Assembly: GCA_028876395.1 (NCBI GenBank)
Contig: JAGWRX010000116.1
Coordinates: forward strand, 1 to 32,997
DNA: 32,997 bases
Source of the DNA: Acidobacteriota bacterium
GTDB lineage: Bacteria > Acidobacteriota > Terriglobia > Terriglobales > Acidobacteriaceae
Reading direction: 5' to 3'
In this document: piece after piece, positions 19,059 to 26,182 of the stretch
Layout of the letters: each line of letters opens with the position of its first letter
Numbering within the stretch: position 1 is the stretch's first letter
Made by a program: the position numbers and the translations under genes
Notes under the pieces: model-generated
Told to the model about the DNA's origin: nothing
The model's database searches: none
Seen by the model: only the letters and a program-made list of their open reading frames with translations

Positions 19059-19251
19059 TTCCTCTGCCCTTTGCAGTCTAGAATTTTCCGCGTGGAGACT
19101 ACGGCATGAGTCTACCATCGAGCTTGGCCGGGGCAATCACCCGTATGTTGCAGCGTTGCCCACTACCCGCGGAAGACATGCTCCGCGGCTTCCACTAAGA
19201 TGGTGGGTTGAAGCCTGCCGCAAGGCCGCCGGGGACAGGAATCCAGAGGGA

Positions 19252-20742
19252 GTGCGAAAGCTGAACACGGTGGAGACTCTTTGCAAGCGCAATATCCTTC
19301 TCATTCTGGCGTTTTCAGTGGTCGGGTTCGTCGTCATGGGGTATCACCCCGGCCTGGAAGATGACGGCGTGTATCTTTCCGCCGTCAAGAGCGACGTAAA
19401 CCCCGCGCTCTACCCGCACGACTCCGCCTTTTTCCGCGAACAGTTGCAGGCCACGCTGTTTGACAACGGGGTCGCCCAGTTCGTCCGCTGGACGCACATC
19501 CCGGTGGCGGCTACGGAAATCCTGTGGCAGTTTGCGTCCATCGTGCTCATCGTTCTTGGCTGCTGGAGCATTGCGCGAACCCTCTTTGCCGAGGCCCGCG
19601 CGCAGTGGGCAGGCGTTGCCCTTGTCACAGCCATGTTCACGCTGCCCGTGTCAGGCGCCGCGCTCTATCTCGTGGACCAGCATCTGCATCCGCGCACCGT
19701 GGCCACGGCAATGATCCTCCTGGCGGTTTCGAAAATCATGGCCGGCAAACGCCTCCAGGCGCTCCCACTGCTGCTGCTTGCGTTTGCAATGCATCCCATC
19801 ATGGCCGCGCTGGGCATCTCCTTTTGCGGTATCCTCACGGTCGCCATGCTTGAGCCGGTCCACGTCTGGGCCCGCTCATGGCGAGACTCGCTGGCTGCCG
19901 CCGTGCCGCTCAGCTGGATCTTCGAGTCCCCCACCCCGGCCTGGCACAAAGCGCTGCAGACGCGCAGATATTTCTTCCTCTACAAATGGACCTGGTACGA
20001 GTGGCTCGGCGCGCTCGCTCCGCTGCTGCTTTTCTGGATCCTGTGGCGCGTCGCGCGGCAGCGCGGCGAAACCAATCTGGCGCGCTTTGCACTGGCCGTC
20101 TTTATTTATGGCGGAATTCAGCAGGCTGTCGCCATGGTCGTGCTGGGCTCGCCGGAGCTGATCCGCCTCACCCCGCTGCAACCCATGCGCTACCTCCACC
20201 TCGTCTATTTCTTCCTCGTGCTCGTTGCCGGATGCCTGTTGGGTAAATACCTGCTGAAAAGCAGCGTCCTGCGCTGGGCCGTGTTCCTCCTCGTCATCAA
20301 CGTGCCCATGTATGCCGTTCAGCAGGCGGAGTTCTGCGGCAGCCAGCATCTGGAGTTGCCTGGCATGAAACCCGCCAACCCATGGCTGCAGGCCTTTGCC
20401 TGGATTCGCCGCAACACACCAACCGATGCCTATTTCGCGCTCGACCCCAACTACCTCGCCACACCCGGCGAGGACTACCACAGCTTTCGCGCGCTCGCCG
20501 AGCGCAGCCAGATGGCCGACGCCATCAAGGACACGGCCGTCGTAACGCAGGTGCCCGATCTGGCGCCCGCGTGGGACCAGCAGATCACCGCCCAAGCCGG
20601 CTGGCCGGGCTTCAAGCTGGCCGATTTCGAGCGGCTGAAGGCGGAGTTTGGCGTCAACTGGGTGCTGGTCTCTTATCCGCAACCAGCCGGCCTGCCCTGC
20701 CCGTGGCACAACAGCAGGCTCGCCGTCTGTACCGTCCCCTGA
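19252..20742 (+). CDS. polytopic membrane protein, paralogue 1 (GT-C-like candidate)
   Basis: About 496 aa from a GTG at 19252 (ACAGGA ten bases upstream); a TTG at 19156 is the longest alternative, so the start is uncertain. Around ten membrane helices and a C-terminal soluble region. After the first helix comes an acidic motif HPGLEDDGVY (about 32-41), followed by LYP..FF, MHPIMA, RRYFFLYKWTWYEWLG and LQPMRYLHL. A conserved C-terminal block (FAWIRRNTP, SFRALAERSQMAD, KDTAVVTQVP) precedes a cysteine pair (PCPWHNSRLAVC). It is clearly paralogous to the protein at 21909-23414. An acidic pair in the first extracytoplasmic loop is a hallmark of GT-C glycosyltransferases, so a lipid-linked-sugar transferase role is plausible but unproven. 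Confidence 0.75.
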   Translation: MRKLNTVETLCKRNILLILAFSVVGFVVMGYHPGLEDDGVYLSAVKSDVNPALYPHDSAFFREQLQATLFDNGVAQFVRWTHIPVAATEILWQFASIVLIVLGCWSIARTLFAEARAQWAGVALVTAMFTLPVSGAALYLVDQHLHPRTVATAMILLAVSKIMAGKRLQALPLLLLAFAMHPIMAALGISFCGILTVAMLEPVHVWARSWRDSLAAAVPLSWIFESPTPAWHKALQTRRYFFLYKWTWYEWLGALAPLLLFWILWRVARQRGETNLARFALAVFIYGGIQQAVAMVVLGSPELIRLTPLQPMRYLHLVYFFLVLVAGCLLGKYLLKSSVLRWAVFLLVINVPMYAVQQAEFCGSQHLELPGMKPANPWLQAFAWIRRNTPTDAYFALDPNYLATPGEDYHSFRALAERSQMADAIKDTAVVTQVPDLAPAWDQQITAQAGWPGFKLADFERLKAEFGVNWVLVSYPQPAGLPCPWHNSRLAVCTVP

Positions 20743-21114: not shown

Positions 21115-21912
21115 ATGATCAACAATAAAAAGGTGGTCGCCGTCCTCCCCGCCTATAACGCCGAGAAGACGCTTGAGTGGACTGTCAACGAGATCCCCGG
21201 CGCGGTTGACCTGTGCATTCTGGTGGACGATCACAGCACCGATGAAACCGCTGCACTGGCCAAAAGACTCGGATTACAGGTACATGTGCATCCGCGCAAC
21301 CGCGGATACGGCGGCAATCAGAAGACCTGTTACGCCGCTGCGCTTGATGCGGGCGCTGATGTTGTGGTCATGCTGCACCCCGGCTACCAGTACACGCCTC
21401 GCCTCGTCGAACCCTTGGCCGGCATGATCGCCTATGACGAATATGACGTTGTCCTGGGGTCGCGCATCCTGGGCGGCGGCGCGCTCAAGGGTGGAATGCC
21501 GCGCTACAAATACATTGCCAATCGCGCTCTGACCTTGATTCAGAATCTGCTCCTGGGCGCAAAGTTGTCCGAGTACCACACGGGATTCCGTGCCTTCAGC
21601 CGCGATTTGCTCCTTTCCTTGCCCCTGCACGCCAACTCGGATGACTTTGTCTTCGACAACCAGATGCTGGCGCAGTGCATCCTGCGCGGGGCGCGCATCG
21701 GAGAAGTCTCCTGCCCCACCCGCTATTTTGAGGAGGCATCCTCCATTAATTTCCGGCGCAGTTCGATCTACGGGCTGGGCGTGCTGCAAACAACCCTCAG
21801 CGGCCTGGCAGCGCGGTCCGGTCTCTACCACAGTCCTGTTTTCAGGTTTCCCCCTTCCCAACTGAAGCAGAAGAGCAATGCAATGGAGCGCGCGTTGGAG
21901 GATATTTCGTGA
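21115..21912 (+). CDS. DPM1-like family 2 glycosyltransferase
   Basis: 265 aa. GT-A fold, similar to dolichyl/polyprenyl-phosphate sugar synthases: VVAVLPAYNAEKTL (7-20), ILVDDHSTDETA with the nucleotide-binding Asp pair (35-46), NRGYGGNQKTCY (62-73), and an acceptor block with GSRILGGGALKGGMP, SEYHTGFRAFSR and DDFVFDNQML. There is no C-terminal membrane helix. The metal-binding Asp expected after VVMLHP is Gly90 (HPGYQY; codon GGC at 21382-21384), where relatives as I recall them have HPDYQY. The stop overlaps the GTG start of the next gene (GTGA), so the two are translationally coupled. It probably activates a sugar on a lipid carrier or extends a glycan. Confidence 0.85.
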   Translation: MINNKKVVAVLPAYNAEKTLEWTVNEIPGAVDLCILVDDHSTDETAALAKRLGLQVHVHPRNRGYGGNQKTCYAAALDAGADVVVMLHPGYQYTPRLVEPLAGMIAYDEYDVVLGSRILGGGALKGGMPRYKYIANRALTLIQNLLLGAKLSEYHTGFRAFSRDLLLSLPLHANSDDFVFDNQMLAQCILRGARIGEVSCPTRYFEEASSINFRRSSIYGLGVLQTTLSGLAARSGLYHSPVFRFPPSQLKQKSNAMERALEDIS

Positions 21913-23414
21913 CACATGCCGCGGAAAAGCGGCTGCCGTACCTGCGACTCCTCTTGCTCACTGCAGCGGCGCTGGCAATTCATGGTTATCATCTGTGCGC
22001 GGAAGACGGCGAAATCTATGTGCCGGCCGCCAGAAAGCTTCTCCATCCCGGGCTCTACCCGTTCGGCACGGAGTTCTTCACATCACACGGCAAGCTGTCC
22101 ATGTTCAGCCCCATCCTCGCATGGACGGCAAAGCTGACCCATCTCTCCATGGACTGGACGCTGTTTGCCTGGTACCTGGTCAGCCTCTTTGCCACTCTTG
22201 CCTCCTGCTGGCTGCTCGTGAGGGCCTGCTTTGCCACGGAGCGCGCGCGATGGAGCGCCGTCGCCGTTGCAGCCGCTGTTCTCACCATGCCCGCAACCAA
22301 CACGGGGCTGCTGCTGATTGATCCGTATCTGACTGCGCGTTCCTTCTCGACGCCGCTCACCCTGTTTGCGCTGGCAAGCTGTCTTGAGCGCCGCTATATA
22401 CGCCTCATCGCGATCGTCTTGCTGACCGCGGCCATCCATCCGCAGATGGCGATCTACCTGATCTTCCTCGCCGCTCTCATGCGGCTCGCAGAGGTCAGAA
22501 AGCGATCCACCCACGAGAAGGCTCCGGCGCTGGCTGCCGCGGGCATGCTGCCTACGGGATTTCAAATCGAACGAGCCTCCGGGCCTTACCGTGAGGCACT
22601 CTACTCCAGGGATTATTTCTTTCTCTATAACTGGGAGTGGTACCACTGGCTCGGCATGCTCGCGCCGCTCGCCATTCTGGCGTGGTTCTGGAGAGGCAAT
22701 GTGCGCGGCACGCTGCCCGGTTTCCGCCGTCTCAGTTTCGCCATGATCCCCTTCGGCCTCGTCTCCATCGCTGCCGCCGCCGTGGTGTCCCTCCCGATGC
22801 TGGAGATGTTTGTCCGCTTGCAGCCCTTGCGGTCCTTCCACCTCATCACCTTCGTCTTCGTCCTGCTCTTTGCCGGCGTGGTGGGTGAATACATCGGCAA
22901 AGACCGCCCGTGGGCCATCGCCGTGCTGTGCTGTGTGCTTGCCGCTGGCATGTTCTTCGTCGCCCGGCAAACCTATCCGAACAGCCCGCAGATCGAGCTT
23001 CCCTCTAAAACGAGCACCAATCCCTGGGTGAATACCCTCCTCTGGGTGCGCCGGCATACCCCCGAGAATGCCGTCTTTGCCGTCGATTCCCGCTACTTCA
23101 AGGACCCTGAGGTGGATGTCCATGGGTTCCGCGCGATCGCAGAGCGCTCAGAACTCGCCGACTACTACAAGGATGGCGGCGTGGTCACGCTCTTTCCTGC
23201 CCTGGCGGGCGAGTGGAAGCAGATGAGCAACGCCACGTACGGCCTCAATCATTTTCAGGCAAAGGACTTCGACCGCCTCAGGAGCCAGTATCCCGCCGTC
23301 TCCTGGACCATCGTGCACGGCCCGGCGCCGGAAGGCATGGACTGCCCTTACCAGAACCAGGGTTTTGCCGTCTGCAGGCTGAACGCAACCCCACCGGACG
23401 CGGCCAGCAATTGA
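21909..23414 (+). CDS. polytopic membrane protein, paralogue 2 (GT-C-like candidate)
   Basis: 501 aa, starting with GTG inside the GT2 stop (GTGA overlap). Same architecture as the protein at 19252-20742: helix, acidic loop (HLCAEDGEIY, about 28-37), LYPFGTEFF, about ten helices, RDYFFLYNWEWYHWLG, RLQPLRSFHL, WVRRHTP, GFRAIAERSELADYYKDGGVV, and a C-terminal DCPYQNQGFAVC. The C-terminal soluble block is the best conserved part between the two copies. Coupling to a DPM1-like GT2 and the acidic first loop suggest a GT-C-type transferase acting outside the cytoplasm; substrate unknown. Confidence 0.78.
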   Translation: MTHAAEKRLPYLRLLLLTAAALAIHGYHLCAEDGEIYVPAARKLLHPGLYPFGTEFFTSHGKLSMFSPILAWTAKLTHLSMDWTLFAWYLVSLFATLASCWLLVRACFATERARWSAVAVAAAVLTMPATNTGLLLIDPYLTARSFSTPLTLFALASCLERRYIRLIAIVLLTAAIHPQMAIYLIFLAALMRLAEVRKRSTHEKAPALAAAGMLPTGFQIERASGPYREALYSRDYFFLYNWEWYHWLGMLAPLAILAWFWRGNVRGTLPGFRRLSFAMIPFGLVSIAAAAVVSLPMLEMFVRLQPLRSFHLITFVFVLLFAGVVGEYIGKDRPWAIAVLCCVLAAGMFFVARQTYPNSPQIELPSKTSTNPWVNTLLWVRRHTPENAVFAVDSRYFKDPEVDVHGFRAIAERSELADYYKDGGVVTLFPALAGEWKQMSNATYGLNHFQAKDFDRLRSQYPAVSWTIVHGPAPEGMDCPYQNQGFAVCRLNATPPDAASN

Positions 23415-23501: not shown

Positions 23502-24908
23502 ATGCTGAATCTTACCCAGCGCCTTCTTCTTGGCTGCATTCTCATCACCGCCCTCGCCGCGGGCCTGGTGGCGGCAACCCATCGCGCCCTCGCAGCGGCC
23601 GGCCTGTCATCGGTAGCCGTCGCGTTTCTCGCATCCATCGTGCTCGTCGAGTTCGGAACCATCCTCCTCGTGCTGCATCCCATCCGCACGGTTGCCCGCG
23701 ACGCAAAAAAAATCGCGCAAGGCAACCTCGAGCACCGTGTCGCATGGAGCAGCCGGGACGATTTCGGCGTGATTGCCAGCGAGCTGAACCGCATCGCGGT
23801 ACGCCTCCGCGACCTCCGCGACACTGAGGCCGGGCGCAAGCAGATGGAGTTCCAGCTCTCCGACGCCGTCCTCCAATCCATCTTCGAGCCCATCATCGTC
23901 ACTGACAGCAAGGGCCACGTCCTCAAGGTCAACCAGGCAGCCGCTGAAATCCTCGGCGAAGCCGCCAGCGACCGCATGGCGCTCACCACCACGCCCGGCG
24001 GCGACAAGATCCTCAGCGCCATCCGCGACGCCGTCTCCATGCAGAAGCCCGTGGCGGCCGAAGGAGAAGCCGCCATGCTCCCCATGCGCATCGGCAAGCA
24101 GGCGCGCAGCTATCGCCTGCGCACCACGCCCATGCGCGACTCCGAGGGCCGCCTGCTCGGCACCGTCACCACGCTGGAAGACGTGACGACCCTGCAGGAC
24201 ACCGACCGCTTCAAGACCCAGTTCATCACCGTGGCCAGCCGCAAGCTGCGCGATCCGCTGCTCCAGCTGCGCCGCGGCCTCTATGCCCTGGCGCAGGGCT
24301 TCGGCGGCCCACTCCAGCCGCTGCAGGCTGACCTGGTAGCCGCCGCCAGCAGCGAGTCGGAAAAGCTCAATGACCTGATGGCCGATCTCATCGAGGTCGC
24401 GGAAATCGACACCGGCAAGCGCGAGCTTCACATCGAGCGTATGCGGCCTCTGCTCCTGCTCAACGAGGCGCGCGACCGCTTCTGCGACGAAGCCGCGCAA
24501 AAGCATATTCGCATGGAGGTCAGCGCCTTCGCCGACCTCTCGGTCGTCCGGGCCGATCGCCGCGCCGTCCGCTCGATCATGGACAACCTGCTCTCCAACG
24601 CACTCCGCTACACGCCGCCCGAGGGCGAAATCCTGCTGGCCGCCGAGGAAATCCAGGACTACGTGCAATTCACCGTGCGCGACTCCGGACGCGGCATTGA
24701 AGCCGAGCGCCTCAGCACCATCTTCGACCGCTTCAATGCATTCTCTGATGCGGGCACTGGCATGGGCCTGGCCCTGGTCCGCCGCCTGGTCGAGTCCCTC
24801 GGTGGCCAGATTGCCGTCGAAAGCCGTCTCGACCACGGAACCACGTTCCGCTTCACGCTTCCCGTAGCCGTGGTGGATGTGGTCCACCATCCCGTTGAGG
24901 TGGGCTGA
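23502..24908 (+). CDS. membrane sensor histidine kinase with H-box His replaced by Arg
   Basis: 468 aa. Two membrane helices (about 8-25 and 36-58), HAMP (about 58-108), PAS (about 117-230, FEPIIVTDSKGHVLKVNQAAAEILG), a dimerisation/phospho-acceptor helix region (about 235-305) and HATPase_c (about 350-455). The N box (DNLLSNALRYTPP), G1 (DSGRGI), F box (FDRF) and G2 (GTGMGLAL) are all intact. The H box reads ASRKLRDPL where ASHELRTPL is expected, so residue 247 is Arg (CGC at 24240-24242). It should bind ATP but cannot autophosphorylate on the usual His. It lies three bases upstream of a KdpD N-terminal/USP gene, so the pair resembles a split KdpD. No response regulator is adjacent. Confidence 0.9.
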   Translation: MLNLTQRLLLGCILITALAAGLVAATHRALAAAGLSSVAVAFLASIVLVEFGTILLVLHPIRTVARDAKKIAQGNLEHRVAWSSRDDFGVIASELNRIAVRLRDLRDTEAGRKQMEFQLSDAVLQSIFEPIIVTDSKGHVLKVNQAAAEILGEAASDRMALTTTPGGDKILSAIRDAVSMQKPVAAEGEAAMLPMRIGKQARSYRLRTTPMRDSEGRLLGTVTTLEDVTTLQDTDRFKTQFITVASRKLRDPLLQLRRGLYALAQGFGGPLQPLQADLVAAASSESEKLNDLMADLIEVAEIDTGKRELHIERMRPLLLLNEARDRFCDEAAQKHIRMEVSAFADLSVVRADRRAVRSIMDNLLSNALRYTPPEGEILLAAEEIQDYVQFTVRDSGRGIEAERLSTIFDRFNAFSDAGTGMGLALVRRLVESLGGQIAVESRLDHGTTFRFTLPVAVVDVVHHPVEVG

Positions 24909-24911
24909 TTC

Positions 24912-26036
24912 ATGGCAGAAATTAAACCCGAAAACGCGCCCGCGCAGGCCTGGCTGCGCATCTACGTCGGAGCCGCTCCAGGCGTGGGCAAGACCTATCA
25001 CATGCTCAACGACGCCCTGCTCAAGCGCAAGCAGGGAGTGGACGTGGTCATCGGCCTCGTCGAACCACACGGCCGCCAGGAAACCACGGAGCAGATTCGC
25101 GACCTCGAAGTTGTTCCCCTGCGCGTGATTCCCTATCGCGGCGTCGAACTCAAGGAAATGGACGTGGACGCCATCCTTGCCCGCCGGCCTGACACCGTGA
25201 TCGTCGATGAACTCGCCCACACCAACGTCCCCGGCAGCAAGAACCGCAAGCGCTACGAAGACGTGCTCGATCTGCTCGACGCCGGCATCAACGTCATGAC
25301 CGCGGTGAACATCCAGCACCTTGAGACCCTGAACGACACCGTCAACCGCTCCGCAAACACCGTTATTCGCGAAACCGTGCCCGACAACTTCCTGAAGCGC
25401 GCCGACGAAGTCGTCAACGTCGACGTCACCGTGGAGGAGCTTCGCCTCCGCCTGCGCGAGGGCAAGATCTACCACCCCGAAAAGGTCGAGCAGGCGCTCG
25501 CCAACTTCTTCCGCAAGGGCAACCTCAACCTGCTCCGCGAGCTCTCCCTGCGCACCACCGCCGAGCAGGTCGGCAAGCGCGCTGCCGAATACCGCCGCAC
25601 CCAGGGCCTAGAGCAGGCACCCATTCCTGAGAAGGTCATGGTCTGCCTCAGCACGCGCCCCGGCACAGAGCGCCTGCTGCGCGTCGGCGCGCGCGTTGCC
25701 GGCCGCCTCGCCACCAACTGGTACGCCGTCTACGTCACCCGCCCCGAGGAAAACAAGAAAGACAACGACCCCGAGGCGCCCCACCGCCTGGAGGAATACC
25801 AGCGCATGGCCCGCGACCTCGGCGCGCAGGTCGTCAACCTCACTGAGAAGAACGTCTCCGACGCGCTCATCCGCTTTGCCCAGCAGGAGAGCATCTCCCA
25901 CGTCATCTTCGGACAGTCCGTCCGCTCGCGCTGGGATATTCTCCTGCGCGGCTCGGTTCTCAACCGCTTTCTAGCCGAAGTGCGCGACGTCACCGTACAG
26001 GTCGTCCCCATGCAGAAGCCGCTGCGCCGCGGCTGA
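24912..26036 (+). CDS. KdpD N-terminal sensor domain plus universal stress domain, stand-alone
   Basis: 374 aa. KdpD sensor domain (about 12-225) with Walker A GAAPGVGKT (20-28), Walker B-like VDELAHTN (98-105) and the family block VNIQHLETLNDTV. It is followed by a universal-stress-protein-like alpha/beta domain (about 248-370, ending VIFGQSVRSRWDILLRGSVLNRFL). The membrane, GAF and kinase parts of full KdpD are missing; the kinase-like protein immediately upstream (3-bp gap, GAGGTG ribosome-binding site) probably supplies them. In full-length KdpD these domains sense K+/ATP and, through USP, second messengers or other kinases. No kdpFABC or kdpE lies in this window. Confidence 0.9.
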   Translation: MAEIKPENAPAQAWLRIYVGAAPGVGKTYHMLNDALLKRKQGVDVVIGLVEPHGRQETTEQIRDLEVVPLRVIPYRGVELKEMDVDAILARRPDTVIVDELAHTNVPGSKNRKRYEDVLDLLDAGINVMTAVNIQHLETLNDTVNRSANTVIRETVPDNFLKRADEVVNVDVTVEELRLRLREGKIYHPEKVEQALANFFRKGNLNLLRELSLRTTAEQVGKRAAEYRRTQGLEQAPIPEKVMVCLSTRPGTERLLRVGARVAGRLATNWYAVYVTRPEENKKDNDPEAPHRLEEYQRMARDLGAQVVNLTEKNVSDALIRFAQQESISHVIFGQSVRSRWDILLRGSVLNRFLAEVRDVTVQVVPMQKPLRRG

Positions 26037-26106: not shown

Positions 26107-26182
26107 GAGCTCGTAGCTCAGTAGGTAGAGCAACGCCCTTTTAAGGCGTGGGTCCTGGGTTCGAATCCCAGCGAGCTCACCA
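26107..26182 (+). tRNA. tRNA-Lys (anticodon TTT)
   Basis: 76 nt cloverleaf. Acceptor GAGCTCG/CGAGCTC, D arm around GCTC-A-GTAGGTA-GAGC, anticodon stem ACGCC/GGCGT with loop CTTTTAA, T arm CTGGG-TTCGAAT-CCCAG, discriminator A and a genomically encoded CCA (26180-26182). Confidence 0.97.

Follow-up and report, generated by a model that had tools for sequence, protein, structure and literature searches.

What can a histidine kinase still do after it has lost its histidine, and why would such a kinase be kept beside a gene for a KdpD protein? This question is raised by two adjacent genes in contig JAGWRX010000116.1 of an Acidobacteriota bacterium of the family Acidobacteriaceae (assembly GCA_028876395.1), which was analyzed over its 32,997 nucleotides and is referred to below as the window. 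The genome that carries it (G000) comprises 3.85 Mb in 246 contigs and is 87% complete; loci and genomes of relatives are given L and G numbers. The upstream gene (23502..24908, + strand) encodes a kinase of 468 amino acids (aa) with the order transmembrane (TM) segment-HAMP-PAS-DHp-CA, in which Arg occupies the phospho-acceptor position; this His-less HAMP-PAS kinase is called pHK. The downstream gene (24912..26036, + strand) encodes KdpD/Usp, a 374-aa short KdpD of the atypical serine kinase type. Our favored answer, held with slightly better than even confidence, is that the two proteins together form a regulator, with the disarmed histidine kinase in control of the KdpD/Usp serine kinase. 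The anatomy and history of the pair rest on sequence, and its regulation and target are what we infer.

An earlier note on this DNA had described a HAMP-PAS kinase with Arg247 in ASRKLRDPL, 3 bp before a gene for a KdpD sensor domain and a universal stress protein (Usp) domain, and the open reading frames, the codon itself and Pfam searches all confirmed this description. Exactly 3 bp separate the stop codon of pHK from the start codon of KdpD/Usp. In pHK, the HAMP domain (PF00672, residues 56-104, 23667..23813, + strand), the PAS domain (PF08448, residues 127-231, 23880..24194, + strand; well conserved, with 51 of 105 columns at ≥95%) and the HATPase_c or CA domain with its N, G1, F and G2 boxes (24555..24869, + strand; Pfam and residue conservation) scored over their cut-offs, and HisKA stayed under its own (21.1 vs 26.9 bits). 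The degenerate H box ASRKLRDPL (residues 245-253, 24234..24260, + strand) has seven of nine columns at ≥95% among 83 distinct family-type proteins. Its acceptor position is the codon CGC at 24240..24242 (+ strand), which gives Arg247 and lies within FITVASRKLRDPL; Lys248 (24243..24245, + strand) follows, where His-bearing relatives have Glu or Gln (HEL, HQL). Of the features of an active HisKA kinase, pHK thus retains the CA domain with all four boxes and lacks both the acceptor His and a nearby response regulator, no receiver gene having been found within 3 kb of it in the window. An AlphaFold model (mean pLDDT 73.8, pTM 0.44) served for the fold class only.

The loss of the acceptor is shared by the orthologues. 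Of 124 relatives found, 80 loci with a KdpD/Usp relative were kept; a kinase lies upstream of KdpD/Usp in 75 of the 80, and the acceptor site, readable in 72, is never His. A wider set of 120 loci gave 87 distinct kinases after removal of kinases shorter than 280 aa and of repeats with identical last 260 aa. Among these 87, position 247 is Arg in 60, Gln in 14, Ser in 3, and Gly, Lys, Glu, Asp, Asn or Ala in one or two each, with no His at all; the next residue is Lys in 85 and Arg in 2, and the residue at +4 from the acceptor is Asp in 68 and Thr or Asn in 8. By contrast with these positions, N362, N366, D394, G396, G398, F408 and G422 of the ATP site are present in 87/87, and D361, G418 and G420 in 85/87, so that the acceptor and its neighbor have been lost while the ATP site has been kept. 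The alignment of residue 247 that the earlier note had called for therefore returned a conserved non-His position, and the case that it had named as refuting, His in close relatives with a sequencing error or strain-specific decay in the window, is excluded by the counts of 0/72 readable loci and 0/87 distinct kinases. Mean majority conservation is 0.94 for the H box, 0.85 for PAS, 0.80 for CA, 0.78 for the DHp docking stretch and 0.77 for DHp helix 2, and pHK dN/dS is 0.060-0.105 over six comparisons (0.064 against L032), two of which are an identical sequence pair counted twice. As judged from these sequences, pHK is kept under purifying selection. It was found at E 1e-40 or better in at least 54 of 59 genomes of the window's genus, from which loci were taken out of the best 30 matches; since the genome searches scored the best few candidates per genome (3-4 for class and phylum, 16 for the genus), all pHK counts are lower bounds. 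Signaling without phosphotransfer of its own, as had been suggested earlier, would be the most economical reading of these data.

The same note had taken the two genes for the halves of a split KdpD, and this part of it did not hold. The best-scoring models for pHK are WalK/PnpS/PhoR, every one of them under its cut-off, and a Pfam search detected neither DUF4118 nor GAF in it. The C-terminal half of KdpD (KdpDC, with DUF4118, GAF and a His-bearing HisKA) is a separate gene in relatives (L143), and in L142, L143 and L189 the gene order kdpABC-pHK-KdpD/Usp-KdpDC-kdpE places pHK and KdpDC in one operon; the order in L188 is kdpABC-pHK-KdpD/Usp. KdpDC with His and KdpE also occur near kdpABC, elsewhere in the genome, in those pair genomes for which the kdp locus was retrieved in full. 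HAMP and PAS in place of DUF4118 and GAF, together with a separate KdpDC, rule out pHK as the missing half of KdpD; by sequence, its kin is another type of HAMP-PAS kinase that occurs in kdp operons.

The second protein offers an output that the first reading of the locus had passed over. As described for Escherichia coli and Deinococcus geothermalis, the KdpD domain has atypical serine kinase activity, by which it phosphorylates Ser162 of KdpB and inhibits KdpFABC (PMC11018627). According to the same source, the short KdpD/Usp form of D. geothermalis is stimulated by c-di-AMP, the serine kinase is controlled either by K+ through TM/GAF or by c-di-AMP through Usp, and serine and histidine kinase are often on separate chains in Acidobacteriota. 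The window protein has the corresponding layout (KdpD sensor domain at 302 bits plus Usp, no histidine kinase domain), a Walker A motif GAAPGVGKT (24969..24995, + strand), a Walker B Asp-Glu (25206..25211, + strand; D109/E110 in E. coli) and the adenine-coordinating pair (W39/R190 in E. coli). In 85 distinct paired proteins, GKT, DE and Arg190 are invariant (85/85), and position 39 is always aromatic, mostly with a substitution for Trp (Tyr 66, Phe 17, Trp 2). It is likely that KdpD/Usp, as a member of this serine kinase class, supplies the output of the pair. The NCBIfam model NF038185 (KdpD_non_kinase) gave 420.8 bits for the window protein, under its cut-off of 550, and none of 299 genomes sampled from the class, 74 of which belong to the window's family, passes it.

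Sensing of a second messenger, which the earlier note had considered, is unlikely in the family, as far as c-di-AMP is concerned. The Usp motif RVGAR-X8-WYAVY (25680..25733, + strand) is of the E. coli type and not of the c-di-AMP-binding Staphylococcus aureus class (classes from PMC4686210); the E. coli-type pattern occurs in 68 of the 85 paired proteins (75 when relaxed), and the S. aureus-type pattern in none of them. Diadenylate cyclase (DAC) was detected in none of the 14 family genomes with the pair. It is also absent from 46 of the 60 family genomes without the pair (of the 14 counted positive, G260 is under the cut-off), so that a lack of DAC does not set pair genomes apart. Both tests are indirect, and they make a c-di-AMP input to the pair disfavored on sequence grounds. 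For these and the other family tallies, the lists of genomes without a match are taken to be complete for the family, as the list order suggests.

To the question of where pHK came from, a phylum search gave an answer, as it found kinase relatives at E 1e-60 in at least 26 of 396 genomes and reached His-bearing ones. L190-L192 have the order kdpABC-KdpD/Usp-kinase-receiver gene(s), with an SHELRTPL kinase and one or two receivers directly downstream; seven other His-bearing loci (VSHQLKTPL or VSHQLRTPL) have kdpA and kdpB close by, and L194, L196, L197, L199 and L201 have a receiver gene but no kdp gene within the available stretch. The majority of the nearer His-bearing relatives thus belong to kdp operons. 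A maximum-likelihood tree was built from 50 kinases after the columns of the H box had been taken out; in it, 34 His-less rows form one clade (support 100/99), and the nearest clade to pHK is that of the kdp-operon HAMP-PAS kinases of L190-L192. The tree excludes L194 and L203, is rooted on the outgroup L207 and carries a long-branch warning for L207, L195, L204 and L193; His is taken as ancestral because of this root and of general knowledge of the kinase family. L195 needs a second, separate loss of His. Within 3 kb of the kinase, a receiver domain is encoded at 17/17 loci with His (9 immediately downstream, 8 at a distance of 0.5-1.4 kb) and at 1 of the 88 loci without it, a number that includes repeats of one species from two collections and 65 loci with 3 kb on both sides. 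The exception, L189, has the KdpE of a separate KdpDC-KdpE pair, and the KdpE genes of L142 and L143 are just outside the limit. These counts are non-independent and uncorrected for shared ancestry: they reflect two changes, in each of which the adjacent receiver gene is missing.

Two further features of the kinase family were observed. The separately His-less kinase of L195 (8787-10619, G622) reads AAQALQEPL and stands in a kdp operon beside KdpD/Usp; the equivalents of N362 and G422 are replaced in it, and no receiver gene was found within 3 kb. Orthologues of ~600 aa (L087-L092, L099, L101) have a ~130-aa region between two TM helices that is absent from the versions of 468-488 aa (compared with L002). 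This region is also present in His-bearing relatives, and the tree would allow that it may have been lost more than once.

How the pair relates to the kdp locus was followed in the class sample, in which KdpD/Usp relatives occur in 193 of 299 genomes (E 1e-60), pHK in at least 16 (E 1e-75), KdpA in 196 and DAC in 129. The tight linkage of the two proteins, noted at first in the window, proved general: pHK adjoins KdpD/Usp in 16/16 class-sample genomes that carry it. Of the 74 family genomes, 66 have both KdpD/Usp and KdpA, five have neither, three have KdpD/Usp only (G000, G241, G274) and none has KdpA only. The idea that the pair is confined to genomes without kdp was overturned by the presence of KdpA in 12 of the 14 family genomes with the pair. 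For gene order, kdp loci were hand-picked, 16 from pair genomes and 9 from the 55 family genomes that have KdpD/Usp without pHK. L221 was excluded because it is a contig end of 3.3 kb, and L208 and L209 enter none of the counts. KdpD/Usp is missing from the kdp locus in 15 of the 16 loci of pair genomes; in family genomes without pHK, it lies beside KdpDC in 9/9 loci and between KdpDC and kdpE in eight of them (no kdpE was seen in L211). Both states occur under the same genus code, g42, in G327 (pair) and G289 (no pHK). In a quick KdpD/Usp tree, supported by the Shimodaira-Hasegawa-like approximate likelihood ratio test (SH-aLRT) only and built without frames of ≤250 aa, paired and kdp-linked family proteins form separate clades. 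The pair appears to stand in, from another locus, for the kdp-linked KdpD/Usp gene in the window's family.

Two arrangements of KdpD/Usp genes elsewhere in the sample are also recorded. L219 (11417-13601, G055) has two tandem KdpD/Usp-like genes after kdpC, with 33% and 40% identity to the query. L214 (1-3194) has KdpDC, KdpD/Usp and kdpE together in G241, a 99%-complete genome of 2.4 Mb in which KdpA and KdpB were not found.

Considering that the input to the paired serine kinase is not a TM/GAF region of its own chain and, in the family, hardly c-di-AMP, its fixed partner pHK, with TM, HAMP, PAS and an ATP site, is the obvious candidate. We infer this role for pHK; a ligand or partner of the Usp domain is a possible alternative. 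pHK stays beside KdpD/Usp even at loci separate from kdp, which speaks for the regulator proposed here. In these soil Acidobacteria, pHK would probably steer KdpD/Usp by a change of shape and not by phosphate transfer. In such a mechanism, pHK dimers would anchor KdpD/Usp at the membrane, and HAMP/PAS input together with an ATP-dependent DHp-CA rearrangement would switch the serine kinase on or off. KdpFABC would thereby be controlled after translation without c-di-AMP, and transcription would be left to the separate KdpDC-KdpE pair. The full form of this proposal, in which a histidine kinase, having lost its His and its response regulator, has gone over from His-Asp phosphotransfer to a dedicated, ATP-dependent allosteric control of the KdpD serine kinase at the membrane that shuts the K+ pump post-translationally and free of c-di-AMP, is put forward tentatively, with somewhat less than an even chance. 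The separate loss of His in L195 may mean that the same route was taken twice.

Several observations weigh against this proposal. The link between pHK and KdpD/Usp is genetic only, and the two genes share no single simple history because their trees disagree: the KdpD/Usp proteins encoded at in-operon pHK loci fall into more than one group, with the L188 protein placed among the partners of active kinases. TGES is kept in KdpB in 23/23 relatives' loci, but this motif is general to P-type ATPases, and its conservation is for this reason a weak test. DAC is present in G088 and G095, two genomes with in-operon pHK, and given the distribution of DAC, the absence of c-di-AMP alone fails to explain pHK. 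In G055, the one exception to the absence of KdpD/Usp from the kdp loci of pair genomes, the kdp operon includes two KdpD/Usp-like genes, and the pair is present as well. KdpA and KdpB were not seen in the 87%-complete G000 itself, although KdpB is present in its closest relative, G033, and in nine more of the genus's pair genomes that were tested; in G274, which is 99% complete, the pair occurs with no KdpA and no KdpB over the cut-off. Finally, PMC11018627 names the Usp domain as what controls the short KdpD in Acidobacteriota.

This last statement supports an alternative in which pHK is a membrane anchor or stability partner only, its ATP site and PAS domain are no switch, and KdpD/Usp is controlled by its own Usp (PMC11018627). 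The 468-aa pHK, which is without the ~130-aa inter-TM region, would suit such a part. A pure anchor, however, would not obviously need the core ATP-site residues, which are invariant in 87/87 kinases while the His and +4 positions vary, and the replacements in L195 indicate that decay of the ATP site is possible; we regard this alternative as quite unlikely. A pHK that is still a phosphatase, or that autophosphorylates on another residue, is extremely improbable in spite of its intact CA domain and of the Thr or Asn at +4 in 8/87 kinases. HisKA phosphatase activity uses Glu, Asp or Gln at +1 and Thr or Asn at +4; the orthologues have Lys or Arg at +1 in 87/87 and Asp at +4 in 68/87, and no receiver partner is near in 87 of 88 loci.

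An action of pHK on a two-component system in the manner of DivL or RetS, as a heterodimer with KdpDC or by binding a phosphorylated regulator such as KdpE, with KdpD/Usp as a sensor or effector arm, is unlikely. The closest solved sequence to pHK is indeed DivL (4q20, E 9.6e-31), Foldseek matches include DivL (rank 11) and RetS (rank 37) behind a WalK model (first) and other kinases, and KdpDC with His and KdpE are at hand in pair genomes with a whole kdp locus; moreover, DivL is without kinase and phosphatase activity and senses DivK~P (PMC4211667). Yet pHK adjoins KdpD/Usp, and not KdpDC or KdpE, in family loci, and the receiver gene typical near His-bearing relatives is missing by it. A weak argument is that the DHp stretch that we take to be the regulator-docking site of active kinases is not specially conserved. 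It is rather unlikely, too, that the pair has taken on a different target in place of KdpFABC, such as another transporter or a stress client, through serine phosphorylation or ATP-dependent binding. G000 and G274, with the pair and no KdpA, nor KdpB over the cut-off, would fit such a change of target, as would the window neighbors of the pair (GT2, weak DUF6798 matches, tRNA-Lys, GalT), none of which shows a link to K+. Against it stand the KdpA genes of most family pair genomes and the existence of kdp-operon versions of both genes, and in G038, the sole class-sample member of the genus without the pair, KdpA and KdpB were likewise not found.

Comparison with known systems places the proposed regulator between two kinds of protein. 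With the short KdpD/Usp of D. geothermalis (Silberberg et al. 2024, PMC11018627), the window protein has in common KdpD and Usp without histidine kinase domains, Walker A, the Walker B DE and Arg190. It differs from the short KdpD/Usp proteins of that paper in being co-encoded with a pseudo-histidine kinase and, in its family, in lying away from kdp; unlike the D. geothermalis protein, it belongs to a set without the S. aureus-type c-di-AMP motif and, in the family pair genomes, without a detected DAC. Full-length E. coli KdpD shares the KdpD and Usp module but joins it in a single chain to TM/GAF and a DHp with His, whereas the partner kinase in the window is of another kind. The HAMP-PAS kinases of L190-L192 have the architecture of pHK and the same operon context beside KdpD/Usp, and differ from it in SHELRTPL and in the receiver genes directly downstream. 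DivL of Caulobacter is likewise a HisKA-type pseudo-kinase without the acceptor His, with PAS input and a repurposed DHp-CA (PMC4211667), and the sequence of pHK is consistent with a pseudo-histidine kinase of this type, which would have neither kinase nor phosphatase activity and act by binding. However, DivL has Tyr where pHK has Arg or Gln, and it serves a phosphorelay (DivK~P, CckA; PMC4211667), whereas pHK adjoins a serine-kinase gene with no receiver gene near.

Beyond the Usp domain, the available text of PMC11018627 names no input for short KdpDs without TM/GAF and c-di-AMP control, and the pair is a concrete, genetically fixed candidate for it. Natural intermediates exist: some kdp operons have an active kinase accompanied by a response regulator, others have a pseudo-kinase, and a third form is the stand-alone pair. 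If the proposal is true, pseudo-histidine kinases would reach past phosphorelays into serine-kinase signaling; searches limited to open-licence papers brought up no earlier account of a KdpD protein with such a kinase as its partner.

Some minor observations concern the surroundings of these genes. The response regulators by the active kinases of L192 (10517-11281) and L191 (7228-8696) have a C-terminal part of ~120-140 aa that matches no Pfam family at E 0.001 and may be a new output domain. The nearest named loci to the window pair are from Acidobacteriota, and the relatives' loci include those of Terracidiphilus gabretensis (L082) and Occallatibacter savannae (L051). Immediately 3' of the pair is a tRNA-Lys (TTT) gene (26107-26182). 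Upstream of the pair, two large proteins with weak DUF6798 matches in Pfam are encoded at 19156-20742 and 21909-23414; frames upstream in L051, L092 and L082 have starts similar to those of the DUF6798-like proteins, as judged by eye, and this upstream locus may be conserved in the family.

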